Part shown: one piece after another, positions 9,860-45,626 of the stretch
Position numbering within the stretch: the stretch's first letter is position 1
How the letters are laid out: each line of letters begins with the position of its first letter
Assembly: GCF_018402175.1 (NCBI RefSeq)
Contig: NZ_JAGYJK010000014.1
Span: 1 to 64,000 of the forward strand
DNA from: Yoonia sp.
GTDB taxonomy: Bacteria; Pseudomonadota; Alphaproteobacteria; Rhodobacterales; Rhodobacteraceae
Length of the DNA stretch: 64,000 nucleotides
Reading direction: 5' to 3'
The notes under the pieces: model-generated
What the model saw: only the letters and a program-made list of their open reading frames with translations
What the model was told of the DNA's origin: nothing
The model's database searches: none
Position numbers and translations under genes: made by a program

Positions 9860-9871
9860 GGTGCTCTCTCC

Positions 9872-11957: not shown

Positions 11958-11959
11958 GA

Positions 11960-14033: not shown

Positions 14034-14063
14034 CGTCCTTCGGGCGCGGTTTTCGGAAAATCA

Positions 14064-14098
14064 GCCCCAGCCGAGAGATAGAAAAAAACGGCTGGGGC
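14064..14098 (-). terminator. Intercistronic hairpin between binding protein and permease
   Basis: Perfect 10-bp arms (14064-14073 and 14089-14098, GCCCCAGCCG and its complement) flank a 15-nt loop that is T-rich on the transcribed strand. It begins 34 bp after the binding-protein stop. Such hairpins stabilise upstream mRNA or cause partial termination, giving excess binding protein. Confidence 0.75.
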
Positions 14099-14132
14099 GA
14101 TGGCACCGCCCATGAAAGGCGGCGTCAGAGGA

Positions 14133-24633: not shown

Positions 24634-25452
<819 letters not shown>

Positions 25453-25462
25453 GACCCTGACC

Positions 25463-29338: not shown

Positions 29339-29960
29339 TATGGTCATCCGCAAGGCCTCGTCGAAGAGCGTATGCTACTGCGGCCATTGTCCGACTTTTT
29401 GGGGTCGCTGGCCAATCGGTCTTATCTGGCGCTTCGTGGCACGCTTCTCGATGGATGAGATCCGCGAGGGCGCGTTTTTGCGCGAAGCGATCGAACTGGC
29501 CGCCGTCGAGGTCATAGTCCCGCTCCTGACCGACGAGCAGCTGGTCCAGTCGCGGCGCAATCTGCGCCTGCAAGACATCTTGGTGGCCGATGGCGATTTT
29601 CGCGGCTTTTATGCGCTCGATGACGAGATGCGTGAGCTGATTTTGTCGTTCACCGGATTGAAGAAACTTGCGTATGACGCTGATACCGCTTGGCTTCATG
29701 TGAATCGCGCACAGCAATTGATCCTGCCGATGCCTGGCCAGGTCGCTGAAATGCTCGAGGAACACAAAGCCATTCTCGCGGCGCTTGAAACGCGCGACCC
29801 TGATGCCGCCCGACAGGCGATACGCGCCCATCTGGGACGGCTCATCACCTTTCTGGAGCCTTTGAAACTCGAACACCCCGAATTTTTGCCCCGTGCTGAC
29901 ACAAAGGATTGCCATGACCGTTCCCTCTTACAACCGCCCCCGCTATGCGGCGCGGCTTAA
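29339..29960 (+). pseudogene. GntR-family regulator lacking its DNA-binding domain
   Basis: From SMDEIREGAFLREAIELAAV onward the frame is a typical FCD effector domain of GntR regulators, with metal-site elements in FYALDDEMRELI and MLEEHKAILAALETRD. The ~70-residue winged helix that should precede it is absent. Only about 110 bases separate ATG 29339 (MVIRKASSKS) from the FCD start, and no frame there encodes a helix-turn-helix. An internal deletion is likely. The frame overlaps the next gene by 47 bp. If translated from 29339 or 29451 it would give a ligand-binding protein without DNA contact. Confidence 0.7.
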
Positions 29961-30888
29961 CGCGTTCAAGCGTGCCGGGGGAGCTGTCATTTCCGGTATG
30001 ATCGCCAGTGCCGGGCGCGTCGGCACTCTTGATGCCGCCGATCTGAATTATCCTGACCATTTCGACGCTCAGACGCCGGCCCAACTGGCGCGGATGCTGG
30101 GCGATGCGGGGCTGGCGCTGAATGGACTGGCGATGCGCTACTATACCCATCCCGCCTTTGCCATCGGGGCGTTCACCAACCCCGATCCGGCGGTTCGGCG
30201 CGTGGCGATCGACCTGACCAAACGCGGCATCGACGCGGGGCTGGAAATGGACGGGCGGCTGATGACCCTCTGGATGGGACAAGACGGGTTCGATTACGCC
30301 TTTCAGGGCGATTATGGGCGCATGTGGGATGATACCATCGCGGCCCTGATCGAAGTTGCCAATCACGCCCCCGAGGTCGACATTGCCATCGAATACAAGC
30401 CCAATGAACCGCGCGCCTTTTCGCTCATGCCCGATGTTGGCACCACGCTTCTGGCCGTGCGCGAGACAGGGCGGGGCAACATCGGCGTGACGCTCGACTT
30501 CGCGCATGTGCTTTATGCCGACGAGATGCCGGCCCATACTGCCTATCTGATCGACCGGCATTCCCGCCTGCTGGGCGTGCATCTTAACGATGGCTATGGC
30601 AAGCGCGACGACGGGCTGATGGCGGGAACCGTCCACCCGGTGCAGACCGTTGCGCTGTTCGTGGAACTTGAGCGTATCGGCTATGACGGCGTGATCTACT
30701 TTGACACCTTTCCCGATCATTCCGGCCTCGATCCGATCGAGGAGGCACGCACTAATGTGCGGCTCGTGGAACGCTTGCGCGCAGTGGCGGCGGGTCTGTC
30801 CGGGGATCGGGCCCTGACCGAAGCCATTGCGCGTCAGGATGCAGCGCTTAGCCAGCGCATCGTGGCCGAGGCTTTGTTCGGTGCATGA
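29914..30888 (+). CDS. Sugar (phosphate) isomerase/epimerase, TIM barrel
   Basis: The 324-residue protein (MTVPSYNRPRYAARLNAFKR) is an AP-endonuclease-2/xylose-isomerase-like barrel. Likely metal ligands are E in AIEYKPNEP, D in GVTLDFAHV, H in LLGVHLNDGYG and E or D in YFDTFPDH. Members interconvert keto and aldo sugars or epimerise ketoses. The next gene is a PfkB kinase whose GTG start overlaps its stop, so isomerisation followed by phosphorylation of the same sugar is likely. An AAAGGA site lies before the ATG. Confidence 0.8.
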   Translation: MTVPSYNRPRYAARLNAFKRAGGAVISGMIASAGRVGTLDAADLNYPDHFDAQTPAQLARMLGDAGLALNGLAMRYYTHPAFAIGAFTNPDPAVRRVAIDLTKRGIDAGLEMDGRLMTLWMGQDGFDYAFQGDYGRMWDDTIAALIEVANHAPEVDIAIEYKPNEPRAFSLMPDVGTTLLAVRETGRGNIGVTLDFAHVLYADEMPAHTAYLIDRHSRLLGVHLNDGYGKRDDGLMAGTVHPVQTVALFVELERIGYDGVIYFDTFPDHSGLDPIEEARTNVRLVERLRAVAAGLSGDRALTEAIARQDAALSQRIVAEALFGA

Positions 30889-31786
30889 GCCCGCGATCCT
30901 TGTGGTCGGCGCGCTGCATCTTGATGTGGTGGTCGATGCGCCGCATCTGCCCGCGCTCGATGAAACCGTGGTGGGTCATGGCGTGGCTTATCGCTTTGGC
31001 GGCAAGGGCGGCAATCAGGCCGTGGCGGCGGCTCGCATGGGCGGACGTATCGCCATGGCTGGCTGTGTCGGCCCCGACCGCTTCGGCGACCAGATTCTTG
31101 CTGCGCTGGACAGCGCCGGGGTGGACCGGAGTGGCGTTCTGACGGTTCTGGGCGCATCTGGAATGAGCGTGGCCATCGTGGATGCGGCGGGCGACTATGG
31201 CGCGGTGATCGTGTCGGGCGTCAATCGCGCGCTCGATGGCACGGCTGTCCGCCTGTCGCCAGCTTTGCGCACGATCTTGTTGCAAAATGAGGTGCCCGAC
31301 TCGGTCAACCGGGCCATAGCGGCACGTGCGGCGCCCGCTGTCCGGATCATCCTGAACGCGGCACCCGCCCGGCCGATTGCCCCCGACCTGATGGCGCGCG
31401 TCGATGTGTTGATCGTCAACCGTGGCGAGGCGGCGGCCCTTGCCGGCACTGCTGACCCCGATGTGGCCGCGGCCCGCCTGTTGGATCAGGGCCCCGGTGC
31501 CGTGATCGTGACTATGGGCGCTGATGGTCTGATCTGCGCCCGCCCCGGCGAGGCGCTGCTGATCCATGGCGCGCCGCCCGTCAAGGTGATCTCGACGCAT
31601 GGGGCGGGTGACGCCTTTGCCGGGGCACTGGCGGCTGTCTTGACGCAAGGTACCGCGCTGCCCGATGCGCTCGCCTTTGCCCAAGGCATGGCGGCGCTGA
31701 CGGTCGCCACACCCCCGACGCGCGTGCCGCCATCACGCCTGATGCCGTGCGCGCCTTTTGCGCCAGCCTATAGGCCCAGCCGGTAG
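30881..31786 (+). CDS. PfkB/ribokinase-family sugar kinase, frameshifted tail
   Basis: Reading from GTG 30881 gives MHEPAILVVGALHLDVVVDA, with YRFGGKGGNQAVAAARMGG (sugar lid/A motif) and HGAGDAFAGALAAVL (catalytic DTGAGD-type motif with THGAGDAF). The last ~25 residues as read (RVPPSRLMPCAPFAPAY) are unlike the family. One base earlier or later at the C-run 31712-31716 the end becomes DARAAITPDAVRAFCASL with a stop at 31770-31772, a typical ribokinase tail. So a single indel, or sequencing error, replaced the tail; the core enzyme may be active. It is coupled to the isomerase gene. Confidence 0.82.
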   Translation: MHEPAILVVGALHLDVVVDAPHLPALDETVVGHGVAYRFGGKGGNQAVAAARMGGRIAMAGCVGPDRFGDQILAALDSAGVDRSGVLTVLGASGMSVAIVDAAGDYGAVIVSGVNRALDGTAVRLSPALRTILLQNEVPDSVNRAIAARAAPAVRIILNAAPARPIAPDLMARVDVLIVNRGEAAALAGTADPDVAAARLLDQGPGAVIVTMGADGLICARPGEALLIHGAPPVKVISTHGAGDAFAGALAAVLTQGTALPDALAFAQGMAALTVATPPTRVPPSRLMPCAPFAPAYRPSR

Positions 31787-32613: not shown

Positions 32614-33642
32614 TCACTCCGTCGGCGCGTCGGCGCGCATCAATCCCTTGTCTTTCAGCTCCTGCCAGAGCGCAGGCGGTATCCTCGCCGTCGCGGCCTG
32701 CAGGTTCGATGCCATCTCGGCCTGACCCTGCCCGCCGGGGATGACCGACACGACCGCCGGGTGGCAGAGCGGAAACTGGAACGCCGCATCCACCAGTCGC
32801 ACGTCATGGGCGGCACAGACCGCCGCGATCGCCGCGACCCTGTCAAGGATCGCCTGCGGTGCGGGATCATAGTTGTAGAATGCGCCCGGACGCGCCCCGG
32901 TGGCAAGCACCCCCGAATTGTAGGGGCCGCCGATCACTACGCCGATGCCGCGCGCGGCACAAAGCGGCAAAAAGCTGTCCAGCGCCTCTTGCTCCAGCAA
33001 GGTGTAGCGCCCGGCCAGCAAAAACAGGTCGAAATCGCCCCGTTCGGCCAGCCACTGGCTTGGCTGCCATTCGTTGAGCCCGGCCCCGAAGGCTGCGATC
33101 ACGCCTTGCGCGCGCAATTCCATGAGCGCGCGGTATCCACCCTCCATGAAGGTTGCCAATCGTGCATCGAGCGCGGCTTGCGTGCCATGGTTGACGATGT
33201 CGAGATCATGGGCATACAGGATATCGACCCGGTCAAGCCCTAGACGTTCCAGCGAGAATTCAAACGACCGCATGGTCGCATCATAGCCATAATCATAAAC
33301 CTCGTTGCGCGCGGGCACCTCGAACCATTTGCCAAAGCCGTCACGCTTGTCTGGTGTCGTGGCGCGCAACAGCCGCCCCACCTTGGTCGACAGAACATAG
33401 CTGTCGCGCGGCTTGCCGCGCAGGAAGCGGTTCAGCCGCGTTTCCGACAGGCCCAGCCCATAAAGCGGTGCGGTATCGAAATGACGCACACCTCCCGCCC
33501 ATGCCTGATCCAGAATCGCCTCGGCTTTGGCATCCGATATCGCGCGATAAAGATTGCCCAAGGGCGCGGCGCCGAACCCCAGTTCAGTAAAGCTCAAGCC
33601 GCCGGTGCCCAACCTGTCCCAATGCCGTGTGCGTTGTGTCAT
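32614..33642 (-). CDS. Aldo-keto reductase, L-fucose/D-threo-aldose dehydrogenase type
   Basis: The 342-residue barrel (LGFGAAPLGNLYRAISDAKA) has the AKR catalytic set: D and Y in HFDTAPLYGLG, K in VLSTKVGRLL and H in ILYAHDLDIV. The layout is that of D-threo-aldose 1-dehydrogenases, which oxidise L-fucose and related sugars to lactones. It is the first gene of a two-gene operon with the COG3618 lactonase. With the SDR at 24709 this makes two candidate fucose dehydrogenases in one locus; they may differ in cofactor or in sugar. Confidence 0.85.
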   Translation of the reverse strand: MTQRTRHWDRLGTGGLSFTELGFGAAPLGNLYRAISDAKAEAILDQAWAGGVRHFDTAPLYGLGLSETRLNRFLRGKPRDSYVLSTKVGRLLRATTPDKRDGFGKWFEVPARNEVYDYGYDATMRSFEFSLERLGLDRVDILYAHDLDIVNHGTQAALDARLATFMEGGYRALMELRAQGVIAAFGAGLNEWQPSQWLAERGDFDLFLLAGRYTLLEQEALDSFLPLCAARGIGVVIGGPYNSGVLATGARPGAFYNYDPAPQAILDRVAAIAAVCAAHDVRLVDAAFQFPLCHPAVVSVIPGGQGQAEMASNLQAATARIPPALWQELKDKGLMRADAPTE

Positions 33643-33747: not shown

Positions 33748-34560
33748 ATGGAACGATTCAGGCAGGTGTTTGGCACTGCGCGACCGGTGATCGGCATGGT
33801 GCATCTTGGCGCCATGCCCGGCGCGCCGCTTTTTGACGCGGGCGGCGGGATCGAGCGGCTGGTGGCTGACGCCCGGGCCGATCTTGCGGCCCTTCAGGCG
33901 GCAGGCTTTGACGCGGTGATGTTTGGCAACGAAAATGACCGTCCCTATGAATTCGACGTTGATCGTGCCTCGACCGCCACGATGGCCCATATCATCGGGC
34001 GGCTGCGGGGCGACATCCGCGTGCCCTTTGGCGTCAATGTCTTGTGGGACCCCATGTCCACCATCGCCCTTGCTGCCGCCACCGGCGCGGCCTTTGTGCG
34101 CGAAATCTTTACCGGCACCTATGCCTCTGACATGGGGCCGTGGATGCCTGATGCGGGCCGGGCGATGCGCTACCGCGACCGGCTGGGCCGGCGTGATTGC
34201 CTGATGCTTTACAATGTCTCGGCCGAATTCGCCGACAGTCTTGACCGCCGCCCGCTGCCCGACCGGGCGCGCAGCGCGGTCTTTTCGTCGATCCCCGATG
34301 CCGTTCTGGTTTCGGGCCAGATCACCGGAGAAGCGGCGGCGCTGTCAGACCTTGAAGCCGTCAAGGCGGTGCTGCCCCATGTTCCGGTGATGGCCAATAC
34401 CGGGGTCAAGCATGATACGGTGGCCGATGTTCTGCGCGTGGCCGATGGCTGCGTGGTGGGTTCGGCGCTCAAGGTTGACGGCAACACATGGAACCCGGTC
34501 GATCCGGCGCGGGCGGCGGATTTCATGGCGCGGGTGCGCGCCGTGCGGGGCACGTCATGA
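33748..34560 (+). CDS. BtpA/SgcQ-family TIM-barrel protein
   Basis: The 270-residue protein (MERFRQVFGTARPVIGMVHL) has hallmark BtpA blocks: GMVHLGAMPGAPLF, AVMFGNENDRPYEF, VPFGVNVLWDP, and the phosphate-binding-like end VMANTGVKHDTVADVLRVAD then VGSALKVDGNTWNPVD. The fold resembles class I aldolases and phosphate-binding barrels; the biochemical activity of the SgcQ group is not established to my knowledge. A purine-rich ribosome site (GAGGGGGGGC) precedes ATG. It begins a five-gene coupled operon; its ATG-proximal region is divergent from the aldo-keto reductase. Confidence 0.85.
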   Translation: MERFRQVFGTARPVIGMVHLGAMPGAPLFDAGGGIERLVADARADLAALQAAGFDAVMFGNENDRPYEFDVDRASTATMAHIIGRLRGDIRVPFGVNVLWDPMSTIALAAATGAAFVREIFTGTYASDMGPWMPDAGRAMRYRDRLGRRDCLMLYNVSAEFADSLDRRPLPDRARSAVFSSIPDAVLVSGQITGEAAALSDLEAVKAVLPHVPVMANTGVKHDTVADVLRVADGCVVGSALKVDGNTWNPVDPARAADFMARVRAVRGTS

Positions 34561-35660
34561 AGGACCGCATTCGCCAGGATCTGATCGCCCTGATGTTGAT
34601 CCCCGGCCTTTCCGGCCATGAGGACCGCGTGCGCCGGCATATAGCCGCCAGCCTGCCGAACCTGCCGCACCTGCCGCGCACCGACCGGCTGGGCAATCTG
34701 ATCGTGACCATTCCCGGCAACCCGCAGGCGCCATCGGTCATGGTGTTCACCCATATGGACCAGCTCGGCTTTTTTGTGCGCAAGATCGAGGATGATGGCT
34801 TGATCCGGGTCGAACGCATGGGCGGCGTGCCCGAACGGGCGTTGGCGGCACAGGCGGTGCTGCTGTGTGTCGGTCCCGGCCGTGACGTGCCTGGCATCAT
34901 CTGCAACAAGAGCCATCACGCCACCTCGCCGGACGAGAAATATCACGTCATCAAGGCACCTGATCTGTTGATTGACACCGGCCACGGCTCGCGCGCCGCG
35001 GTCGAGGCTGTGGGTGTTCGCATCGGCACGCCCGTGGTCTATCGGCCCAATGTCCTCGAGATGGGCGGCGACCGGATCGCCGGCACCAGCATCGACGACC
35101 GTGCCGGTTGCGCCGTGCTGATCGAGCTGGCCCGCGCCCTTGCCACCCGGCAAGGCGGGCCGACCGTGCATCTGGTCTTTTCGGTGCAGGAGGAATTCAA
35201 CCTGCGCGGTGCGCTGGTCGCCGCCCAGACCCTCAAGCCCGACATCGCCATCCAGATCGATCTGATGTTGGCCTGTGACACACCCGACATGGCGTCACGG
35301 GGCGACATGCGGATGGGCGGCGGGCCGGGGATGTCGCTCTATTCCTTTCACGGGCGCGGTACGCTCAACGGCGTGATCCCGCACCCCGCCGCCGTCCGGC
35401 TGATCGAACAGACCGCACAGGCCCAAGCCATCCCCCTTCAGCACAGCGCACAGGTGGGTGTTCTGACTGACCTGTCATATGTGCAGCTTGTGGGCGAGGG
35501 GGTGGTTTCGGTCGATCTGGGCTTCCCCTGTCGCTACACCCACTCGGCGCTTGAGATGTGCGACCTTAATGATCTGGTCGCCTTGGCGCGGCTGCTGGAA
35601 TGCGCGCTTGCGGGCATCGGTCCCGATTTTGCGCTGTCACGCGATGAGGGCACGCCATGA
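34557..35660 (+). CDS. M42-family metallopeptidase/aminoacylase-like (SgcX type)
   Basis: The 367-residue protein starts MKDRIRQDLIALMLIPGLSG. Metal ligands of the M42 family are visible: H66 and D68 in VFTHMDQLGF, D180/D181 in TSIDDRAG, E212/E213 in SVQEEFNLRG, D235 near IQIDLM and H329 in CRYTHSALE. E. coli sgcX encodes a similar protein beside sgcQ. The ATG overlaps the BtpA stop (ATGA). M42 proteins are aminopeptidases or deblocking enzymes, so in a sugar operon it may remove an acyl or aminoacyl group from a modified sugar; this is inference. Confidence 0.85.
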   Translation: MKDRIRQDLIALMLIPGLSGHEDRVRRHIAASLPNLPHLPRTDRLGNLIVTIPGNPQAPSVMVFTHMDQLGFFVRKIEDDGLIRVERMGGVPERALAAQAVLLCVGPGRDVPGIICNKSHHATSPDEKYHVIKAPDLLIDTGHGSRAAVEAVGVRIGTPVVYRPNVLEMGGDRIAGTSIDDRAGCAVLIELARALATRQGGPTVHLVFSVQEEFNLRGALVAAQTLKPDIAIQIDLMLACDTPDMASRGDMRMGGGPGMSLYSFHGRGTLNGVIPHPAAVRLIEQTAQAQAIPLQHSAQVGVLTDLSYVQLVGEGVVSVDLGFPCRYTHSALEMCDLNDLVALARLLECALAGIGPDFALSRDEGTP

Positions 35661-37144
35661 CCTGCACGCTTGGCATCGACATCGGTACCTTCGAATCCAA
35701 GGGTGTTCTCGTGGACCAGAACGGCCGGATCCTTGCCGAGGCCCGCCACCCCCACAAGATGCTGGTCCCACGCCCCGGCTGGGCCGAACATCGCGCCGAC
35801 GAAGACTGGTGGGGCGATATGGTGCGTATCACGCGCGCCATTCTGGCCACGCCGGGCGTGTCGGCGCGCGATATCGCCTGTATCGCCACAAGCGCGATCG
35901 GCCCGTGCATGCTGCCGGTCGATGCGGAGGGCCACCCGCTGATGAATGGGGTGCTCTATGGCGTGGACACCCGCGCAAGCGCCGAGATTGCGGAGCTGAC
36001 GGGCCGCATCGGTGCCGACGCGATCCTTGATCGCTGCGGAAATGCGCTGACCTCGCAATCGGTCGGGCCAAAGATCTTGTGGCTCAAACGCCATCACCCC
36101 GAGATCTTTGCAAAGACCGCCAAGATCCTGACATCGACCAGCCATGTGGTTTTCCGTCTGACCGGCGCGCATGTGATCGATCATTACACCGCCGCCAATT
36201 TCAGCCCGCTCTATGATGTGGCCACCCAGGATTGGACGACGGCATTGGCTGACGACATCATCGGCGCCGACAGGCTGCCGCGCCTGATGTGGTCGACCCA
36301 GATCGCAGGCCAGGTGACCGAGGTGGCGGCGGCCGAAACCGGGCTTGTGGCTGGCACACCCGTCACCTGCGGCACCATCGATGCCGCCGCCGAGGCCATC
36401 AGCGTGGGCGTACGGCATGCGGGTGACATGATGATGATGTATGGCTCGACCATCTTCATGATCGCGCTGACAGCCGATCGGGTGCGCGACGCGCGGCTGT
36501 GGTATGCGCCATGGCTGTTTCCGGGGGTCCATGCCTCGATGGCGGGGCTGGCCACAAGCGGCACGCTGACCCATTGGTTTCGCGACCAGATGGCGTGCGA
36601 CCTTGCCCCGGAAACGGCTTTCGCCACCCTCGCCGAAGAGGCCGCCGCTTCGCCCGCCTGCGCCAACGGCCTGCTGATGCTGCCCTATTTCTCGGGCGAG
36701 CGTACACCGCTGCACGATCCGCTGGCCAAGGGCGCATTCTATGGGCTGAACCTGACGCATCGGCGGGGCGACATGTATCGCGCCCTGCTCGAAGGCATTG
36801 CGATGGGTAGCGCCCATGTCATCGACTGTTACCGCGACGTCGGGCAGGCGCCGGGGCGGGTCATGGCCGTCGGGGGTGGCACGAAGAACGCCGTCTGGCT
36901 GCAATCCACCTCGGATTTCGGGGGGGTGGCGCAAATCCTGTGCGACAAGACCCTGGGTGCAAGCTATGGCAACGCTTTTCTGGCGGCCATGGCCGTCGGT
37001 TTGGCCGATCCGGCCGATATCGACAGATGGAACCCGGCGGTGCGCCGCGTCGATCCCGCCGGTGGCCCGGATCACCACAGGCATTATGACCTGTTCCGAA
37101 AGCTTTACACCCAGACACGGGACATTGCGCATGCGCTTGGCTGA
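35657..37144 (+). CDS. FGGY-family carbohydrate kinase (xylulokinase-like)
   Basis: The 495-residue protein has the N-terminal FGGY phosphate loop LGIDIGTFESKGVLVD, the hinge/catalytic region GVLYGVDTRASAEI with the likely base aspartate, and the C-terminal ATP motif VMAVGGGTKNAVWLQ. The xylulokinase-like block MLPYFSGERTPLHDPLAKG is present. It should phosphorylate a ketose or polyol in the cytoplasm. Its ATG overlaps the M42 stop (ATGA) and it overlaps the next gene by 14 bp, so product levels are coupled. Substrate is unknown; the PHI-like isomerase downstream suggests the product is a hexulose or pentulose phosphate. Confidence 0.88.
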   Translation: MTCTLGIDIGTFESKGVLVDQNGRILAEARHPHKMLVPRPGWAEHRADEDWWGDMVRITRAILATPGVSARDIACIATSAIGPCMLPVDAEGHPLMNGVLYGVDTRASAEIAELTGRIGADAILDRCGNALTSQSVGPKILWLKRHHPEIFAKTAKILTSTSHVVFRLTGAHVIDHYTAANFSPLYDVATQDWTTALADDIIGADRLPRLMWSTQIAGQVTEVAAAETGLVAGTPVTCGTIDAAAEAISVGVRHAGDMMMMYGSTIFMIALTADRVRDARLWYAPWLFPGVHASMAGLATSGTLTHWFRDQMACDLAPETAFATLAEEAAASPACANGLLMLPYFSGERTPLHDPLAKGAFYGLNLTHRRGDMYRALLEGIAMGSAHVIDCYRDVGQAPGRVMAVGGGTKNAVWLQSTSDFGGVAQILCDKTLGASYGNAFLAAMAVGLADPADIDRWNPAVRRVDPAGGPDHHRHYDLFRKLYTQTRDIAHALG

Positions 37145-37697
37145 CGGGGCGCTTTATCAGACGGCTCTGGCCGAACTTGGTGATGTGACGGCGCGCATCA
37201 CCGCCGCCGAAACGGCGGCGGCATGCGCCTTGATCGCCGATGCGGGGCAGTTGGTGCTTTACGGCTGTGGCCGCGAGGGGCTTTTGGTGCGAGGCTTTGC
37301 CATGCGGCTGCATCATCTGGGGCTGCGCGTGGCCATGCAGGGCGACATGGCCTGTCCGCCGGTCGGGCCGGGTGATCTTTTCATCGCATCTGCCGGACCC
37401 GGAGAACTGTCGACCGTTACGGCCCTGATGCAGGTGGCGCGCGGAGCCGGGGCGGATGTGCTGTTCTTGACGGCGGAACCCGCCACGCCCACAGCCCGGC
37501 TTGCGACACAGGTTCTGACCATCCCGGCCCAGACCATGGCGCGCGATACCGCGCCGGGCGCAAGCACGGTCTTGCCGATGGGTTCGATCTATGAGGGGGC
37601 GCTGTTCGTGCTGTTTGAAATCATGGTGCTTCGGCTGCGCGAGCGGCTTGGCGCAACGCCCGAGGCCATGCGCGCCCGGCACACAAATCTGGAGTGA
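37131..37697 (+). CDS. SIS-domain isomerase resembling 6-phospho-3-hexuloisomerase
   Basis: The 188-residue protein (MRLADGALYQTALAELGDVT) is a single SIS domain. It follows the HxlB/PHI plan closely: LYGCGREGLLVRGFAMRLHHLG, GDLFIASAGPGELSTV, a TMARDTAPGAS segment, VLPMGSIYEGALFVLFEIM and the end AMRARHTNLE, which mirrors the RHANLE ending of PHI enzymes. PHI converts 3-hexulose 6-phosphate to fructose 6-phosphate. There is no recognisable HPS (HxlA) partner; the BtpA barrel occupies that genomic place. The ATG lies 14 bp inside the kinase gene. Confidence 0.82.
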   Translation: MRLADGALYQTALAELGDVTARITAAETAAACALIADAGQLVLYGCGREGLLVRGFAMRLHHLGLRVAMQGDMACPPVGPGDLFIASAGPGELSTVTALMQVARGAGADVLFLTAEPATPTARLATQVLTIPAQTMARDTAPGASTVLPMGSIYEGALFVLFEIMVLRLRERLGATPEAMRARHTNLE

Positions 37698-37701
37698 TCC
37701 G

Positions 37702-38451
37702 ATGCGGTTCGAACTTATGCGCCCCTACCAGATCCGCGATACCATCGCGCGCGATGTGGCTGTGGTTTTGCCCATCGGTGTGATGGAATATCATGGGGAA
37801 CACATGGGCGTCGGCATGGATTTGCTGGCCGTGACCCGTGTTCTCGACAGGCTTGAGGCCGAGGCGCCGGACAAGATCGTGATCTTGCCGCCCTTTGCCT
37901 ATGGCGCGGCCAGCTATGCCGTCGCCGCCCCCGAAGGCAGCGGCACGCTGCATGTGGACGCCGGGCGCATTGCACCGATGGCACAAGAGATGTTTCTTGG
38001 TCTTTTGCGCATCGGATTTCGCAATATCCACGGTTTGATCCATCACCAGACCGAAAACTTTGCCGCCGGCATGCCAACCGATCTGGCGTTTCGGTTTGCC
38101 GGGCGGCAGGCCGTTTTCCAATTTCTCGAAAGCGAACGGGGCGAGGGGTGGTGGGGCCGAAACGACATGCAAGACTACTATGCCCGCCAGTCTGCGGGCG
38201 ATGACCCGTTCAACTGGGTGCGTGTGCATCCGCTGATGACGCCCGAGATCACCGCCATCTATCCCTTTGATCATGCCGGGGTCGGGGAGACCTCGCTGAT
38301 GTTGGCGCTGGCGCCCGATGTGGTCGAAATGGACAGGCTGGCCGCCAACACCGCCTGGTACACGGCCAGCGCCGTTGAGGCCACGGCAGAGTTGGGCGAA
38401 CGCGGGGTCGCCGCGATCCTTGCGCATCTGCGGCGGGTGCTTGGGGTCTGA
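37702..38451 (+). CDS. Creatininase-family metallohydrolase
   Basis: The 249-residue protein (MRFELMRPYQIRDTIARDVA) has the creatininase metal motif VLPIGVMEYHGEHMGVGMD, a variant of the central HGGN box (LIHHQTENFAAGMP) and GVGETSLMLAL in place of HAGExETS. Family members hydrolyse cyclic amides or formamide bonds (creatinine, formamidopyrimidine). It is the fifth gene of the operon, 4 bp after the isomerase. The HGGN change suggests a divergent substrate. Ring opening of a lactam or amide sugar is one possibility; this is inference. Confidence 0.82.
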   Translation: MRFELMRPYQIRDTIARDVAVVLPIGVMEYHGEHMGVGMDLLAVTRVLDRLEAEAPDKIVILPPFAYGAASYAVAAPEGSGTLHVDAGRIAPMAQEMFLGLLRIGFRNIHGLIHHQTENFAAGMPTDLAFRFAGRQAVFQFLESERGEGWWGRNDMQDYYARQSAGDDPFNWVRVHPLMTPEITAIYPFDHAGVGETSLMLALAPDVVEMDRLAANTAWYTASAVEATAELGERGVAAILAHLRRVLGV

Positions 38452-38455
38452 GACC

Positions 38456-39373
38456 TTATTTGACCGCGCCGGCGGCCATGCCCTTGATGATGTATTTCTC
38501 AAGCAAGATGGCCACTAAGATCAGCGGCAAGATCGCGGCCGACGACAGCGCCGCCATCGACCACCACGAAATGCCCTGTGAGCCCGTCTGGCTTGCGACC
38601 ATCACGGGCAAGGTGTTGGCATTGGTCGATGTCAGCAGCGCGGCAAAGAAATATTCGTTCCACGTCAGCACCAACGACAAGATGAAGGCCGCGACCATAC
38701 CGGGCAGGGCGATAGGCAAGATGATCGTCACAAAGGCGCCCCAGATCGACAGCCCGTCCACCAGCGCGGCTTCCTCCAGCTCGGTCGGGATGGAGCTGAA
38801 CTGATCGCGCATGATCCAGATGACGATCGGCATCACTGTCAGCGTGTAAAGCAAGATCAGCCCGATGCGCGTGTCCAGCAGCGCCAGCTCCTTGTAAAGC
38901 ACAAGGAAAGGCAGGGCGAGCACGACGGGTGGCAAGATCAGCTGGCTGAGGAAGAAAAACGAGATATCCGCGTTCTTCATGAAGCTGAAGCGATAGTTGA
39001 ACCGGCTCAGCCCATAGGCCGCCATGCTTCCTAAGACCAGCGCCAGTGCCGACGAACACAGCGCCACGATGACCGAATTCCAGAACCGCTTCAGGAATTC
39101 TGCGCGAACCGTGGATTCGGCAAAGATCGTTTCGGGCGACAGGCCCAGCGACCGCAGGCCCAGCATCTTGGGTTCGAAATCCACCCAAGGCACCAGATTG
39201 CCCTGCATCACATCGGGCGCCGCCTTGAACGAGGTCGTCAGCGTCCAATAGATCGGAAACAGACAGATGAACGCCCAAACCAGCAAGACCGCATAGATCG
39301 CCGCCCGGCCAAGGAACCAGCTGGGACGAAAGGCGCGATCGGCGTCGCTGTCACGAAAAATCTGTTGCGTCAT
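38456..39373 (-). CDS. Carbohydrate ABC transporter permease (MalG type)
   Basis: The 305-residue protein has about six membrane helices, the EAA loop LEEAALVDGLSIWGAFVTIILP and the MalG-class end EKYIIKGMAAGAVK. Its start is 1 bp after the stop of the first permease gene. It ends 4 bp from the convergent creatininase gene. It forms the channel for the sugar system served by the Tat-exported binding protein. Confidence 0.9.
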   Translation of the reverse strand: MTQQIFRDSDADRAFRPSWFLGRAAIYAVLLVWAFICLFPIYWTLTTSFKAAPDVMQGNLVPWVDFEPKMLGLRSLGLSPETIFAESTVRAEFLKRFWNSVIVALCSSALALVLGSMAAYGLSRFNYRFSFMKNADISFFFLSQLILPPVVLALPFLVLYKELALLDTRIGLILLYTLTVMPIVIWIMRDQFSSIPTELEEAALVDGLSIWGAFVTIILPIALPGMVAAFILSLVLTWNEYFFAALLTSTNANTLPVMVASQTGSQGISWWSMAALSSAAILPLILVAILLEKYIIKGMAAGAVK

Positions 39374-39374
39374 C

Positions 39375-40484
39375 TCAGTACCTCGGTCGCATCCAGCGGT
39401 CGGCCAGCTTCATCAAGATCGTCATCGCGATCACGATCAGCACCAGATAGACAATGGCCAGCAGCGTGCCATAGCCCACGTTCGAGCGGTCGCGGTATTC
39501 GCGGAAAATGAAGCTGGTGACGCTGTCGGTTGCCCCGCCCGGGCCACCGGCGGTGATGTTGATGATGATATCGGCCAGCTTCAGCTTGAAGATGATCCGG
39601 ATCAGGATGGCGGTGATCGACACCGGCAGCATCAGTGGAAACGTGATTTCCCAAAACCGGCGCCAGCCCGATGCGCCATCGACCTCGGCGGCTTCGTGTA
39701 ATTCCTTGGGGATGGCCTGCAGACCGGCAAGGATCATGATCATCATAAAGGGTATAAAGGTCCATGCATCCATCGCCATGATCATGAAGCGCGCCATCTC
39801 GGGCGACCCGAAGAACGAGATCTGATCAAAGCCCAGCTCGCGCACCAGGTGCGCCACAGGGCCAAAGCGAATTTCGAGCATCGACTTGCCGATCATCCAG
39901 CTGACCGCCACCGGCGACAACATCAGCGGCAACAGGAATGCCACGCGAAAGAACTTGCGCGCCCGGATCTGGGCATTCAGCGCCAGCGCCAAGCCAAAGG
40001 CGATGGCATATTCCACCACGATGGCCAACGTGTACCAGACCATGTTTTTCAGGGCATTCCAATAGAATGGGTCGCCCCACATCTGTCGGATATTGTCGAG
40101 CCCGTTGAACTGACGCCCTGTGGGCGAAGACAGGTTCCAATTTGAAAAAGCGATGCCCAGCGCAAATATGAGCGGGAATACCACCATCGCCACTGCAAAC
40201 AACGCAGCCGGCAGCACAAACAGCGCCAGCTTGCCCCTTTCGCCATAGAGCAGTACCTGACCCCAGCACAGGCAGCTTGCCCAGATCAAAAAGGCGTAAA
40301 GCGTGGGCCGCCATGTTTCAAAGCCCAGCGAAACGATGCCCTGACTGTCGAGATATTGCACCAGACCCACAACACAAAGCAGCGCCGCAGAGGCCCACAT
40401 GATCGTTTTGCCGAAGCGGATGCGTGCAGCTGATATATTGTCGGCCGTCACGATGTGCAGATAATCGGCCTCGGTCGATACCAT
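39375..40484 (-). CDS. Carbohydrate ABC transporter permease (MalF type)
   Basis: I take the start at MVSTEADYLHIVTADNISAA, just after a hairpin. The ~369-residue protein has two extra N-terminal hydrophobic segments (TIMWASAALLCVVGLVQYL and a second), then the usual six-helix core with the coupling loop LHEAAEVDGASGWRRFWEITFP. The ATG used here has TTGCCATCT-type sequence upstream on the other strand and a weak AAGGA site. It is longer than most MalF-type permeases of this group. Confidence 0.88.
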   Translation of the reverse strand: MVSTEADYLHIVTADNISAARIRFGKTIMWASAALLCVVGLVQYLDSQGIVSLGFETWRPTLYAFLIWASCLCWGQVLLYGERGKLALFVLPAALFAVAMVVFPLIFALGIAFSNWNLSSPTGRQFNGLDNIRQMWGDPFYWNALKNMVWYTLAIVVEYAIAFGLALALNAQIRARKFFRVAFLLPLMLSPVAVSWMIGKSMLEIRFGPVAHLVRELGFDQISFFGSPEMARFMIMAMDAWTFIPFMMIMILAGLQAIPKELHEAAEVDGASGWRRFWEITFPLMLPVSITAILIRIIFKLKLADIIINITAGGPGGATDSVTSFIFREYRDRSNVGYGTLLAIVYLVLIVIAMTILMKLADRWMRPRY

Positions 40485-40508
40485 TGCGGTTCCTTGCCAT
40501 CTTTTGGT

Positions 40509-40537
40509 CACAGGCCGGGCTTGCAGCCCGGCCTGTG
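40509..40537 (-). terminator. Intercistronic hairpin after the binding-protein gene
   Basis: Perfect 12-base arms CACAGGCCGGGC (40509-40520) and its complement (40526-40537) enclose a five-base loop between the binding protein and permease genes. No T-tract follows, so it is more likely an mRNA-stabilising element that raises binding-protein yield than a full terminator. The DhaK-type ABC operon has the same arrangement. Confidence 0.75.
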
Positions 40538-40564: not shown

Positions 40565-42205
40565 TTATACCCCCAGAGATGCCTTGTAGAGAGCGATCTG
40601 GCTGTCGCGCCCGATCTGGTCGGTGATCCGTTCCCACGCGGCGGCGATGGCATCTGCCGTTTCCTGCGCGCTGGCATACTGGCCTGCAAAGCCCTTTGCC
40701 AGTTCGTCTTCGGCCACCGAGTAGTACTGGAAAATGCCAGGGATGCGCGGTTCGACGGCCGCGTTGGGGTGGTTGTAGCTGTCGGCATTGGACCCAAGAT
40801 AGTCCTCGACGAAAGCGCGGTCATATCCTGCGGCTTCCCACTCTTCGTAGTTGAAGTGCGAGTTGCGATAGGGCTGGAACCCAGAAGGATAAGCCGACAT
40901 CCACAGCGACAGATCCTTGCCGCCCAGATGTGCCGCGGCCGACCATGCGGCCTTGCGCTTCGCTTCATCGCCCGACACGCGTGCCGTGACATAGATGCCC
41001 CAGCCGATATAGGCCATCTGCGGTGCCTCGTTTGCCACATCCTCCCAAGCGCCGGCGGCCGCGTTGTAGCGGCGGTCCGAACCGGGGTTGATACCAAAGC
41101 CGACCACATCGCCCACCACCGAGGTATCCGAGGTGCGCGCCGAAGACCCCACGTCGCCCCACCACATCAGCATGGAGCCCGTGCCGGCAAGGAACTGCTG
41201 GAACGCGGTCGTGCCCGGGTCGGCGTTGATCTGGTCGGCCGGATAGGCGCCTGGCGTCGCGATCAGGTCCATCACGTCCTGGATTGCCTGCACCCAGCCG
41301 GGGTTGTTCACCCTGGGCTTCATCGTGTCGGCATCGAACAGCCAGGCCGGATCGTCGGGGTGTTTCACATAGGCGGTGGCGCGGTTGGCGATGAAGTAGA
41401 AGCCAAAGCCGCCCCAGCCCTTCAACGGGTCAAGATAGCCATGCGCGGGCAGGCCGGTCAGCGGGTCTGTCTGGCCGGCCAGCGCCTTGGACGCCGCGTT
41501 CACCTCCTGCCAGGTGGAGGGCACGGTCTCGCCACCGATCGCGCCGGCACCGAAATAGTCCTTGCGGTAGGCGAAGGTGTGGCAGTCGCCGTCGATCGTT
41601 ACGCGGTACTTCTTGTCGTCCCATGTGCCGACGGGGGGCTGCAGATAGCCCACCAGATCGCTTTCGTCGATCTGCTCGGACACCCAGCCGGGCATTTCGT
41701 CCAAAAGCCCGCGTCCTGCGGTGTCGCCTTCGAAGGGCGCGCCCATCTCGAGGATGTCGAAATCGACCGTGCCCGTCGCAATCGCTTGCTGCAGGCGCGC
41801 GTTATAGTCAGCTTGCGCCAAATCGATCCAGTTGATCTTGGCTCCGGTATAGGCTTCCCAGGGCTTGAGAAACCCGCGGAATAAAAAGTTGTGCAGATTC
41901 TGGTTGTTGAGCCCCATAAAGGTCAGCTCGACACCGGCAAACTCGCCCTGGGCGACCCGCTCCATGGTCGGGCCAAGGCACATTTCGCCCACTTTCTGCC
42001 AATCGGCATCGGTTGGCGATCCCATACCCACACCAGGGACCTTGAGGATTTCGGCACGCACATTCCCATGCCCGCCTGCCAGCGCGCGACCTGCGGGCGC
42101 AAGCCCGCCAAGTGCGGCCAGCGCGCCGACACTTGCAGCGCCCTTCAACAGCCCGCGGCGGGTCAACCCAGCTGCGACCGCGTATTTGTAGAGATCGATT
42201 TTCAC
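40565..42205 (-). CDS. Tat-exported sugar ABC transporter binding protein
   Basis: The 546-residue protein opens with a twin-arginine signal (AAGLTRRGLLKGAASVGALA) and cleavage probably near GRALAGGHG. The remainder is a long SBP_bac_1-type carbohydrate-binding protein, larger than the usual ~420 residues, with many aromatic residues (GGFGFYFIANRATAYVKHPD). Tat export implies folding in the cytoplasm. It begins the minus-strand transport operon and is divergent from the ATPase gene at 42440. The ligand is unknown; the neighbouring genes suggest L-fucose, a fucoside, or the substrate of the BtpA module. Confidence 0.9.
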   Translation of the reverse strand: MKIDLYKYAVAAGLTRRGLLKGAASVGALAALGGLAPAGRALAGGHGNVRAEILKVPGVGMGSPTDADWQKVGEMCLGPTMERVAQGEFAGVELTFMGLNNQNLHNFLFRGFLKPWEAYTGAKINWIDLAQADYNARLQQAIATGTVDFDILEMGAPFEGDTAGRGLLDEMPGWVSEQIDESDLVGYLQPPVGTWDDKKYRVTIDGDCHTFAYRKDYFGAGAIGGETVPSTWQEVNAASKALAGQTDPLTGLPAHGYLDPLKGWGGFGFYFIANRATAYVKHPDDPAWLFDADTMKPRVNNPGWVQAIQDVMDLIATPGAYPADQINADPGTTAFQQFLAGTGSMLMWWGDVGSSARTSDTSVVGDVVGFGINPGSDRRYNAAAGAWEDVANEAPQMAYIGWGIYVTARVSGDEAKRKAAWSAAAHLGGKDLSLWMSAYPSGFQPYRNSHFNYEEWEAAGYDRAFVEDYLGSNADSYNHPNAAVEPRIPGIFQYYSVAEDELAKGFAGQYASAQETADAIAAAWERITDQIGRDSQIALYKASLGV

Positions 42206-42439: not shown

Positions 42440-43501
42440 ATGGCAGAAGTCAGGGTCAGGGATCTTCAAAAGGCCTATGGCGATGTTGGGGTCATTCATG
42501 GCCTTGATGTCGACATTGCCGATGGCGCCTTTGTGGTGCTGGTGGGGCCATCGGGCTGCGGTAAGTCCACGCTTTTGCGCATGATCGCGGGACTCGAGGG
42601 AATCACCTCGGGCACCATTCATATCGGGGAGCGGTTGGTGAACAACCTGCCGCCCGCCGAGCGCGACATTGCCATGGTGTTTCAGAACTACGCGCTCTAC
42701 CCGCACAAGACGGTCGAGGCGAACATGGCTTTTGCCCTGCGGATGCGAAAGATGGACAAGGCCGAGATCAAGGCCAAGGTGGACCGCGCGGCCGAGGTGC
42801 TGGGCCTGACGCCCTATCTGCACCGATACCCCCGCGCCTTGTCGGGTGGTCAGCGCCAGCGCGTTGCCATGGGCCGCGCCATCGTCCGCGACCCGGAGGT
42901 GTTCTTGTTCGATGAACCCTTGTCGAACCTTGATGCCAAGCTCCGGGTGCAGATGCGCACCGAGATCCGCGAATTGCACCAGCGTCTGGGAACCACGACG
43001 GTCTATGTCACCCATGACCAGATCGAAGCGATGACCATGGCCGACAAGATCGTCGTGATGCAGGGCGGGCGGATCGAACAGATGGGCACACCGCTTGAGG
43101 TCTATGACAAACCCGCCAATCTGTTTGTCGCGGGGTTCATCGGATCTCCCTCTATGAACATGTTCGATGCCGTGGTGCGTCATATCGACGGCGCCGTGGT
43201 GGCTGAGGTTGCGGGTGCGCATGTGCTGCTCGATCAGCCCGGGCTTGCCGATGGGCAGGAGATCGTTCTGGGCGTTCGGCCCGAGCATCTTGTGCCCGGT
43301 GAAACGGGCCTTTCGGGCCAGATCGTTGTGGTCGAACCGACAGGCGCGGAAACCTATCTGTTTGTCCGCTTGGGCGCCAAGGAGGTGACGGCCGTCTTGC
43401 GCGAACGCCGCGATGTGCGCCCGGGGCAAGACATCCGGCTTGGCGTGACACCCCGCGCGCCGCATGTGTTTGACCGAAAGACCGGCATGCGGATCGGTTA
43501 G
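42440..43501 (+). CDS. MalK/UgpC-type sugar ABC transporter ATPase
   Basis: The 353-residue protein ([20 protein letters not shown]) has Walker [12 protein letters not shown], signature [15 protein letters not shown], Walker [16 protein letters not shown] and switch [11 protein letters not shown], plus a TOBE/regulatory domain ([22 protein letters not shown]). It is the only ATPase of the island and so should energise the permeases at 38456-40484. The C-terminal domain could be a regulatory docking site as in MalK. Confidence 0.92.
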
Positions 43502-43505
43502 GCGG

Positions 43506-44138
43506 GTGCGGTCCGTATTGGCATATGGGGACTCCAACACGCACGGTACGGTGCCGATGCGGCATGCGCATGATATCCGCCGGTATGATCATGAGATCCG
43601 TTGGACATGGCATGCGGCCGCCTGTTTGCCGAGCGACGTCCATATTATCGAAGAAGGCCACCCCGGGCGCACGACGCTGCATGACGATCCGATCGAAAGC
43701 GCGCACAAGAACGGGCTGACGGTTCTGCCTGCGCTTCTTGAAACTCATCGCCCTCTCGATGCGGTGGTCCTGATGCTGGGAACAAACGACATGAAGGCCC
43801 GCTTTCCGGTGACAGAAATGGATGTGGCGCGCGCGGTCGAGCGGCTGGCCATGGTTGTGATTGGCTCGGGTGCAGGCCCCGATCTTGGGTGCCCGAAGCT
43901 TTTGATCGTGGCGCCACCCCCGATCCAAGAGGTGGGCTGTTTGGCCGAGATGTTCCAAAGTGGTTCCGCGCGATTGCATCGGCTGGGCGCGGCGATGGCG
44001 GCTCGCATGGGCATCAGCTTTGTTGATGCAGGCCAGCACATCACCGTGTCGCCGACAGATGGCATCCATTTCGAGCCCGAGGCGCATGCGGTCCTTGGGC
44101 GCACCATCGGTGCGGCACTTGCGCGGTTGCTGGATTAA
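43506..44138 (+). CDS. SGNH/GDSL-type hydrolase
   Basis: Reading from GTG 43506, just after the ATPase stop, gives a 210-residue protein beginning with block I SVLAYGDSNTHG (nucleophile serine). It includes VVLMLGTNDMKARF (block III, GxND) and DGIHFEPEAHAVLGRTIG (block V, DxxH). The family includes arylesterases and carbohydrate esterases. There is no signal peptide, so it acts inside the cell. Placement after the sugar importer suggests removal of acyl groups from imported sugar; this is inference. Confidence 0.85.
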   Translation: MRSVLAYGDSNTHGTVPMRHAHDIRRYDHEIRWTWHAAACLPSDVHIIEEGHPGRTTLHDDPIESAHKNGLTVLPALLETHRPLDAVVLMLGTNDMKARFPVTEMDVARAVERLAMVVIGSGAGPDLGCPKLLIVAPPPIQEVGCLAEMFQSGSARLHRLGAAMAARMGISFVDAGQHITVSPTDGIHFEPEAHAVLGRTIGAALARLLD

Positions 44139-44215: not shown

Positions 44216-44668
44216 ATGCTCAAGGGATTGGATCCGCGACTGAACGCGGATGTGCTGCATGTGCTGCGGGCGATGGGGCATGGCGATGCGCTGGTGATCG
44301 GGGATGTGAATTTCCCCTCTGACTCGGTGGCGCGGGAAACCGTCTATGGCGATCTGCTGCGGATGGACAACCTGACCGCCGCCGAATGCGTGAACGCGGT
44401 GCTGTCGGTCATGCCGCTCGACACCTTTGTCGATGATTTTGCGGGCCGGATGGAGATCGTGGGCGATCGCGACACCGTGCCACCCGTGCAGGCCGAGGTT
44501 CAGGCCGAGATCGATCACGCCGAGGGCGCAAGCCGCCCGATGATCGGGATCGAGCGCTTTGATTTCTACGACCGAGCCAAACAGGCCTATGCCGTCATCC
44601 AAACTGGCGAGCGCCGATTTTATGGCTGTTTCATCTTGCGCAAGGGCGTCATCCCCCCAGATGCGTAA
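44216..44668 (+). CDS. fucU: L-fucose mutarotase (FucU/RbsD family)
   Basis: The 150-residue protein (MLKGLDPRLNADVLHVLRAM) has the RbsD/FucU hallmarks: the catalytic histidine in AMGHGDALVIGDVNFP, the middle PLDTFVDDFAGRME and the FucU-like C-terminal block IERFDFYDRAKQAYAVIQTGERRFYGCFILRKG. It interconverts alpha and beta anomers so that anomer-specific dehydrogenases are fed. A GGGGGGAGG-type site precedes ATG. Its presence strongly supports L-fucose as a substrate of the locus. Confidence 0.88.
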   Translation: MLKGLDPRLNADVLHVLRAMGHGDALVIGDVNFPSDSVARETVYGDLLRMDNLTAAECVNAVLSVMPLDTFVDDFAGRMEIVGDRDTVPPVQAEVQAEIDHAEGASRPMIGIERFDFYDRAKQAYAVIQTGERRFYGCFILRKGVIPPDA

Positions 44669-44702
44669 ATACAAGGGCAGGGTGGGCAAGAGGGCGGAAA
44701 AG

Positions 44703-45626
44703 ATGGCTGGAAAGATCGTGATCCTTGGCGTTTTTGTTGCTGATACCGCCTATCGCGCGGCGCGCCAGCCGCGCATGGGCGAAACCATCCTCGGGCAAAG
44801 CTTTGTTCTGGGACCCGGCGGCAAGGGTTCGAATCAATCGGTTGCGGCGGCACAGGCGGGGGGGGATGTGCACTTCATCACCCGGCTTGGCGACGATGCC
44901 TTTGCCGACATGGCCCGCGATACATGGGCGCGCGCAGGCGTGACGCCCGAGATCACTCTCGATCCCCAAAGCTATACCGGCGCGGCCTATATCTTTGTCG
45001 AAGACGGCACCGGCAACAACGCCATCATCATCGCGCCGGGCGCGGCTGCGCGGATTTCATGCGATGATGTGGATGCGCAGGCCGCGCTTATTTCGGGGGC
45101 TGCCGTCTTTGTCACCCAGTTGGAACAGCCGATGGCGGCAGCGCATCGCGCGCTTGCCATCGCGCGCAGGGGCGGGGTGCGGACGATCCTGAACCCGGCA
45201 CCTGCCGCCGCCATTTCCGACGAGATGCTGGCGCTGTGCGATATCGTCACGCCCAACGAAACCGAGGCCGAAGGCATCACGGGTATCGCTGTCACCGATA
45301 TCGAGACCGCAAGACAGGCCGCCGCCGCGCTGCTGGCGCGTGGTGCGGGGGCTGCCATCATTACCTTGGGTGAAAACGGCGCGCTTTATCACGATCACAC
45401 ACAGACCGTGCATGTGGCCGCGTTTAATGCAGGCGCTGTCGTGGAAACGACGGGCGCCGGCGATGCCTTTAACGGCGGTTTGGCCACGGCGCTTGCCGAA
45501 GGCCAGAATCCGATCGCTGCTGTGCGGTTTGGCTGTGCAACGGCCGCCATCTCGGTCACCCGGCCGGGAACAGCTCCTTCGATGCCGTCGCGAACTGAAA
45601 TCGAGGCATTGCTGGCACGCTGGTAA
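44703..45626 (+). CDS. Ribokinase-like PfkB sugar kinase
   Basis: The 307-residue protein (MAGKIVILGVFVADTAYRAA) has the ribokinase A motif FVLGPGGKGSNQSVAAAQAGG, the adenine-side region and catalytic VETTGAGDAFNGGLATAL (GAGD). It follows FucU by 34 bp. In ribose operons RbsD mutarotase pairs with RbsK kinase; here the pairing is FucU-like mutarotase plus ribokinase. An upstream ATG at 44661 in frame is a weaker start. Which pentose or deoxy-hexose it phosphorylates is not known. Confidence 0.87.
   Translation: MAGKIVILGVFVADTAYRAARQPRMGETILGQSFVLGPGGKGSNQSVAAAQAGGDVHFITRLGDDAFADMARDTWARAGVTPEITLDPQSYTGAAYIFVEDGTGNNAIIIAPGAAARISCDDVDAQAALISGAAVFVTQLEQPMAAAHRALAIARRGGVRTILNPAPAAAISDEMLALCDIVTPNETEAEGITGIAVTDIETARQAAAALLARGAGAAIITLGENGALYHDHTQTVHVAAFNAGAVVETTGAGDAFNGGLATALAEGQNPIAAVRFGCATAAISVTRPGTAPSMPSRTEIEALLARW

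Follow-up and report, generated by a model that had tools for sequence, protein, structure and literature searches.

The sgc operon of E. coli (sgcXBCQAER) is described, in the accessible part of one source, as a phosphotransferase system (PTS) operon whose sugar is not known (PMC5797941). According to the accessible part of a 2026 atlas, sgc was induced on some nitrogen-containing substrates and its annotation was called putative; deletion of sgcC or sgcX did not impair growth, either on standard substrates or on 190 Biolog carbon sources (PMC13343008). We analysed a sgc-like five-gene module in a stretch of 64,000 nucleotides from Yoonia sp. (contig NZ_JAGYJK010000014.1, positions 1 to 64,000), the whole of which is referred to as the window. 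The module lies on the + strand and encodes a BtpA/SgcQ family protein (33748..34560; PF03437, 242.6 bits; TIGR00259, 239.2 against a cut-off of 153.4), an M42 metallohydrolase of the SgcX class carrying H265-x-R-G-T-L270 (34557..35660; PF05343, 248.3 bits), a xylulokinase-like FGGY sugar kinase (35657..37144; PF00370/PF02782, 151.9/91.4 bits), a SIS-domain protein resembling HxlB over its whole length (37131..37697; PF01380, 39.5 bits), and a creatininase-family hydrolase (37702..38451; PF02633, 98.1 bits). The BtpA/M42 and M42/FGGY junctions are ATGA overlaps, FGGY and SIS overlap by 14 nt, and 4 nt separate SIS from creatininase. The initial annotation had placed five tightly coupled and jointly produced genes on this strand at these positions; the reading frames, the overlaps and the 4-nt gap agree with this, and the Pfam matches bear out its five family names. 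The BtpA/SgcQ subfamily model was the sole NCBIfam model passed among those listed; M42, FGGY, SIS and creatininase all scored under their cut-offs.

The module is a variant of the sgc kind with a core of three genes. SgcQ belongs to the BtpA family, and SgcX is an M42 protein with the HxRGTL motif. The top-scoring relatives of the window M42 in the plasmid collection were SgcX of E. coli and Salmonella, encoded in operons with sgcQ and having HxRGTL in common with it, so the likeness to sgc proposed earlier was upheld. On the other hand, sgc has a PTS, whereas the window has an ATP-binding cassette (ABC) importer and FGGY, and no SIS or creatininase is listed in sgc. SgcB/C-like genes were present only in L133, L134 and L136 of the annotated set, which included the window. 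No SgcE-like gene was detected in the window at E<1e-6, and in the annotated set such genes occurred only in the three sgc loci.

Three further operon kinds contain BtpA. The plasmid operons of Rhizobium, Shinella, Labrenzia and Salipiger combine BtpA, FGGY and a sugar ABC importer, as does the window, but additionally carry DeoR, a short-chain dehydrogenase/reductase (SDR) and, in many cases, a HAD phosphatase, and their stretches are without M42, SIS and creatininase. The quinuclidinone reductase 3ak4, the source of which we take to be Agrobacterium, was matched very closely (367.9 bits) by the SDR of the Shinella operon (L020:8871-9671); this operon may show the natural role of that enzyme. 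The DhaKL operon of probable Rhizobiaceae has the core of three in common with the window and a DeoR regulator in common with sgc, but its importer is of the ribose type, it includes DhaK/DhaL, and no SIS, creatininase or fucose genes were detected in its stretches. As judged from gene content, PfkB–BtpA operons are a second conserved BtpA system; they resemble the window in having BtpA beside a sugar kinase, often with a C–N hydrolase, and differ in the kinase (PfkB) and in the site type of BtpA (K-type, as defined below). In L026:5138-10039, L141, L143-L145 and L150-L152, K-type BtpA and PfkB were accompanied by phosphotriesterase-like and GATase genes and partly by M20 or TenA. A search of open-licence papers found no characterised pathway with the enzymes of the module, as the initial annotation had supposed, and no catalytic role for the BtpA family; it found nothing linking BtpA with a sugar kinase, nor, in the titles and abstracts listed, with an aldolase, and nothing on topic linking fucose with M42, FGGY or BtpA. 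One paper that surfaced for BtpA with aldolase concerns, in its accessible part, cyanobacteria (PMC9175036).

Conservation of the BtpA–M42–FGGY core

Gene content around M42 was determined in two scans: one anchored on M42 across the genome collection, from which the best 80 of 142 relatives were used, and one within a single family of 297 genomes around G557 (49 matches, 41 loci taken). This family is probably Rhizobiaceae, judging from the 93-98% identity of genes in L141 and L143 to Shinella plasmid genes. Once duplicates were removed, the two scans plus L146 and L183 gave 123 loci, stretches ending at contig ends included; L034 and L140 were left out as identical to L077 and L056, respectively. 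In a further survey, 40 of 57 places were taken. Within 6 kb of M42, FGGY was found at 121 of the 123 loci, BtpA at 114, and both at 113. SIS and creatininase were found at 32 and 37 loci, respectively, and all five families at only ten (L050, L051, L053, L055, L114, L146, L207, L216, L219 and L183), two of which, L050 and L051, are near-copies of the window. The counts for SIS and creatininase led us to reject the five genes as one functional unit, which is how they had been presented. Comparison of these neighbourhoods indicates that the conserved unit is the three genes BtpA–M42–FGGY and that SIS and creatininase are optional. The expectation that the families recur together elsewhere holds for the core and, in ten loci, for all five, although the five-family set is rare. 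Clustering of unassigned frames in 80 loci gave, by our reading, a fumarylacetoacetase-like neighbour in 9/80 and no new core gene. The module looks accessory: among the genomes listed, 15 from the window's genus are without BtpA, and G1395 has only a 52% copy.

All five families occur in the window's order in L183, from genome G1038, which is grouped with Chloroflexota (a label given by the grouping around G744). Its gene set comprises a XylA-like TIM barrel, PfkB, BtpA, M42, FGGY, SIS, creatininase, the importer and FucU, and neither an aldo/keto reductase nor a fucose-oxidation gene was detected over approximately 42 kb of contig. Contamination of G1038 was rejected on the tetranucleotide correlation of the module region with eight other stretches, five of them on other contigs (0.90-0.99).

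Of the 123 loci, nine had no BtpA within 6 kb of M42, namely L198, L215 and seven from the first scan; in all nine cases the genome had BtpA elsewhere. At the seven first-scan loci, FGGY follows M42 in six, L126 being the exception, and the distant BtpA proteins of these genomes are 47-58% identical to that of the window and all carry the same E-type site (see below). The genomes of L215 (G1106) and L198 (G1226) have BtpA copies of 68% and 73% identity, respectively; the latter is located at a distance of 5-6 kb, in the neighbouring gene group. The M42–FGGY–Rbs operon of L198 includes neither BtpA nor DhaKL and adjoins a DeoR–FGGY–HAD–BtpA group. G163, in which M42 is at a contig edge, has BtpA copies of 52% and 36%. 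Across the window's order, roughly every seventh genome has BtpA (41/292), the best copy being at least 72% identical in 29, 47-55% in five and at most 35% in seven. Compared with this background of roughly 5/292, the finding of 7/7 would hardly arise by chance, even allowing for relatedness among several of the genomes, kinship being uncorrected in these figures. Three of the seven distant BtpA genes (L297, L298 and L299) lie within FGGY–BtpA–DeoR–SDR groups, three (L295, L296 and L300) had no partner in the 1.5 kb examined, and that of L301 is closest to the BtpA of L024. We read this pattern as a single BtpA reaction that serves both operon kinds. Replacement of BtpA by another enzyme was rejected, because the gap between the aldo/keto reductase gene and M42 is only approximately 105-375 nt in L071, L072, L087, L093, L129 and L215. 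The corresponding gap in L121 is about 1.45 kb and holds unassigned short frames, and L126 has an SDR-like gene instead of an aldo/keto reductase at the place of BtpA.

The metal-site columns of the window M42, to which we assign the residue roles presumed for this family, were all conserved. The HxRGTL motif was found in 120/120 window-clade loci of both scans, which are close relatives of one another, in 3/3 SgcX proteins and in 0/7 outgroup M42 proteins; it also occurs in a 40%-identical M42 of a Chloroflexota-grouped genome (L160/L244). A wider sample took 40 of 87 M42 places, which overlap with the loci counted above. In this sample HxRGTL was present in 9/9 M42 proteins beside BtpA, and in one more at a contig edge (L276), and in 0/30 away from BtpA, six of these 30 having been judged by a six-frame search that gave no H.RGTL; the HSRGTM of L246 falls outside the M42 gene. 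The HxRGTL places form three branches, and the M42 tree leaves it unresolved whether they are a single clade. The M42 genes of L239 and L240, which stand beside PTS genes in enteric frv-like and ypd regions, are without HxRGTL. The window protein is 37.7% identical to SgcX and 38.1% to a Deinococcus M42 from a peptide-type locus, and its best aminopeptidase equivalog score was 166.8 against a cut-off of 412 (NCBIfam).

Fold and site types of BtpA and properties of its partners

An AF2 model of the window BtpA (pLDDT 87.2, pTM 0.89) matched phosphate-binding TIM barrels over nearly its whole length with Z of 17-19, with near-tied matches to GGGPS, hexulose-phosphate synthase/6-phospho-3-hexuloisomerase (HPS/PHI), KDPGal aldolase, thiamin-phosphate synthase, dihydropteroate synthase and HisF. 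BtpA is thus predicted from the model to be a phosphate-binding TIM barrel. A comparison with solved structures by sequence gave nothing better than E 0.2.

Site residues were compared in 155 BtpA proteins, after removal of hits that contained stops, had an unusual length or were too low in coverage or identity. The window protein has what we call the E-type site (E62, E119, N156, E160 and N217-T218). E160 was present in 104/106 FGGY-linked proteins, the exceptions L025 and L045 having G, and in 3/3 PTS-linked proteins. In contrast, 31/32 PfkB-only proteins have K160 together with D156 and G217-S218 (K-type); the exception is L052, the FGGY gene of which is severed by the contig end. The 14 proteins without a kinase within 4.5 kb comprised six of E-type, six of K-type and two of neither. 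A tree of 63 of the 155 proteins, thinned at 80% identity and with L052 counted as FGGY, showed one E/K change, and the PTS-associated SgcQ fell inside the FGGY clade. PTS and FGGY therefore exchange within one type of BtpA, which fits an enzyme taking a phosphorylated sugar, and because the site types track the kinase partner (FGGY/PTS or PfkB), BtpA most likely acts on the phosphosugar of the kinase. Phosphorylation by FGGY upstream of BtpA, as envisaged in the initial annotation, fits the same pattern.

FGGY scored 282.7 against the xylulokinase cut-off of 380.25 and 98.9 against the L-fuculokinase cut-off of 470.9, and was under every equivalog cut-off listed in NCBIfam; its closest solved relative by sequence is 3ifr. 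The SIS protein shares the SIS fold and whole-length similarity with the 6-phospho-3-hexuloisomerase HxlB, but it reached only 137.7 bits with TIGR03127 (cut-off 160) and has GREG and GPGE where the aligned solved relatives have GRSG and GSGE. E49 and G89-P90-G91 were invariant in 29 relatives, and three SIS proteins of other sugar loci have GREG or GRER, and GPG. On these motifs the SIS protein appears to be a PHI relative whose PHI activity is doubtful, and the PHI-like step once ascribed to it is not supported. A pairing of BtpA and SIS as HPS/PHI was rejected, neither protein having the motifs compared. In the creatininase-family protein, which belongs with creatininase and IolN in PF02633, the aligned E/H/D/E positions are kept: E29, H31, D40, H115 and E196, which we take to be metal ligands in line with the alignment to solved creatininase, were retained in at least 37/38 sequences. 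The protein is probably an active metallohydrolase, as far as residue conservation indicates, although its NCBIfam scores were 71.9 against 235 for creatininase and 38.7 against 245 for IolN. The latter score also led us to reject an IolN-like inositol route.

A putative catabolic route and its alternatives

Tentatively, and with slightly less than even confidence, we regard the locus as an extended version of a catabolic core that is conserved, is the counterpart of sgc and has BtpA splitting a phosphosugar. Starting from what is read from the sequences (the coupling of three genes, BtpA elsewhere in the genome, the M42 motif and the E/K split), the steps might be ordered as follows. The importer would bring in a capped or derivatised sugar, FGGY would phosphorylate it, and the SgcX-class M42 would remove the cap from the phosphosugar; M42 is expected to meet a phosphosugar because the only importer of sgc is a PTS. 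Subsequent cleavage of the phosphosugar by E-type BtpA would yield a triose phosphate together with a small ketose, for example dihydroxyacetone, and in one operon group this ketose would be phosphorylated by DhaK/DhaL. SIS and creatininase would be optional side-entry enzymes.

The cleavage step is the weakest part of this proposal and is suggested by the DhaKL operons, DeoR-BtpA-RbsC-M42-FGGY-RbsB-RbsA-RbsC-DhaK-DhaL, which account for 12 of the 123 loci. Their M42 and FGGY proteins are 61-66% and 57-60% identical, respectively, to the best reference, and DhaKL are under their NCBIfam cut-offs. The enzymes encoded are one hydrolase, two kinases and BtpA, and gaps of at most 155 nt leave no room for a further lyase inside the operon. 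A C3/C4-ketose kinase acting after a larger-ketose kinase needs a lyase, so that BtpA is, by elimination, the sole candidate in the operon; the DhaKL operons would accordingly favour C–C cleavage by BtpA. The window itself has a fused dihydroxyacetone-kinase-like gene (8240-9859, 539 aa) with a sugar ABC importer in a minus-strand gene group at 8240-15455, a gene group separate from the five-gene module.

Several observations weigh against BtpA as the lyase of such a core. The predicted fold is common to synthases, epimerases, decarboxylases and aldolases with Z of 17.3-18.9 (50 rows) and does not single out one reaction. The E/K split is a single event in the tree, and the link between partner and site may reflect descent only. 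K242, the sole conserved lysine of the E-type, is common to the K-type as well (153/155 BtpA proteins), and the enrichment of site-type columns at strand ends relative to all conserved columns was not significant (10/15 vs 33/75; Fisher p 0.08). DhaKL are confined to a single type of operon and could have a different compound as their substrate. Furthermore, FGGY and BtpA are both missing from the M42 locus L126, and FGGY–BtpA loci in which no M42 was detected are common (11/13 in the class survey, as well as the plasmid loci). Finally, unique residues other than the motif that are common with the window clade numbered seven in the Deinococcus peptide-type M42 and six in SgcX.

The strongest alternative, somewhat less probable than the lyase proposal, is that BtpA acts on the phosphosugar from FGGY or PTS but epimerises, isomerises or decarboxylates it. 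In the ula and yia systems, a PTS or an FGGY kinase feeds the TIM-barrel enzymes UlaD/SgbH after a hydrolase or reductase, and the PTS/FGGY exchange seen here parallels that arrangement. BtpA has the same superfamily fold, and an RPE-type SgcE in sgc would be expected if a pentulose phosphate were formed. The hexulose-phosphate synthase/KGPDC family has the motif D-x-K-x-x-D in strand 3; however, this motif occurs anywhere in the sequence in only 1/155 BtpA proteins, and strand 3 of the window protein reads GVNVLWDP. The restriction of SgcE-like genes to three sgc loci of the annotated set also speaks against this alternative, which moreover leaves DhaKL unexplained.

It is unlikely that the module serves L-fucose catabolism as a kinase branch, in which the XylA-like protein makes L-fuculose, FGGY is a fuculokinase, BtpA is an L-fuculose-phosphate aldolase and M42 is incidental. 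An L-fucose dehydrogenase (24655-25452; NF052481, 367.2 against a cut-off of 300) and a fuconolactonase-like amidohydrolase (31768-32610; L-fucono-1,5-lactonase, 194.4, under the cut-off of 400) are indeed encoded nearby, and in the accessible part of a study of Rhodobacteraceae bin08, L-fucose loci with an ABC importer were reconstructed and assigned to L-fucose (PMC5507952). Nevertheless, no fucose-oxidation gene was detected in the stretches of 27/84 importer-bearing loci (17/69 among stretches of at least 17 kb) or in L183, and importer and core are therefore independent of fucose oxidation. The FGGY score far below the fuculokinase cut-off and the company of M42 with FGGY in 121/123 loci also disagree with this branch. 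Still less probable is an M42 that is an ordinary aminopeptidase in an operon for a peptide- or amino-acid-linked sugar. Its intact metal-site columns, and the M42 genes beside PTS in the frv-like and ypd regions, would fit such an enzyme, but HxRGTL occurs where peptidase-type M42 proteins have none, and the window M42 is under all aminopeptidase cut-offs listed. That the genes are chance neighbours packed by genome compaction is scarcely credible: only ten loci hold all five, as would fit such a view, but it is contradicted for the core by its presence in 113/123 loci, and the five stand in the same order in another phylum group (L183), where they are native by composition.

Neighbouring genes and implications of the sgc-like module

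The module is flanked on the left by L-fucose oxidation genes, including an SDR and an aldo/keto reductase, and on the right by a MalFGK-type ABC importer, a SGNH hydrolase, a FucU-family mutarotase and a ribokinase. The initial annotation had overlooked both the fucose-oxidation setting and the DhaKL of the sister operons. The aldo/keto reductase gene (32614..33642, - strand) is divergent from btpA and within reach of M42 in 71/80 loci. Further to the left on the + strand, a xylose-isomerase-like TIM barrel (29893..30888) and a PfkB sugar kinase (30885..31786, start approximate) are encoded, both of which are linked in L183 too. Two unrelated dehydratase-like genes are located in the fucose locus, one of the enolase type at 25412-26761 and one of the UxaA/galactarate-dehydratase type at 27738-29261. 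An FCD/GntR-type regulator gene at 29378-29957 is broken, a short N-terminal piece and the FCD part being in different frames; the DNA-binding part has lost about 46 residues, while in the near-identical L051 the match runs through.

The linked importer consists of MalG-type (38456..39373) and MalF-type (39375..40511) permeases and a large solute-binding protein of 546 aa (40565..42205), all on the - strand, and a UgpC/MalK-type ATPase on the + strand (42440..43501; NF008653, 503.6 against a cut-off of 432). The solute-binding protein is kept beside the core; it had no NCBIfam match, and its solved relatives are weak. On the + strand follow the SGNH/GDSL hydrolase (43512..44138, start approximate), found close to M42 in 12/80 loci, the RbsD/FucU-family mutarotase (44216..44668; PF05025, 129 bits; under NCBIfam cut-offs) and the ribokinase (44690..45626, start approximate; TIGR02152, 300.4 against 299.65).

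The module is a widespread relative of sgc, the substrate of which, according to the accessible part of the 2026 study, stayed unsolved (PMC13343008). These relatives offer handles in that an ATP-driven kinase replaces the PTS and some operons add DhaKL, and HxRGTL in M42 and the E/K type in BtpA sort family members ahead of any assay. It is conceivable, though less likely than not, that E-type BtpA proteins are an unrecognised class of phosphosugar lyases with K242 as their sole conserved lysine and that SgcX-class M42 proteins are phosphosugar hydrolases rather than peptidases, acting in one undescribed route with exchangeable FGGY and PTS. If this is true, such a route would span Rhodobacterales, Rhizobiaceae-like, enteric and Chloroflexota-grouped genomes.

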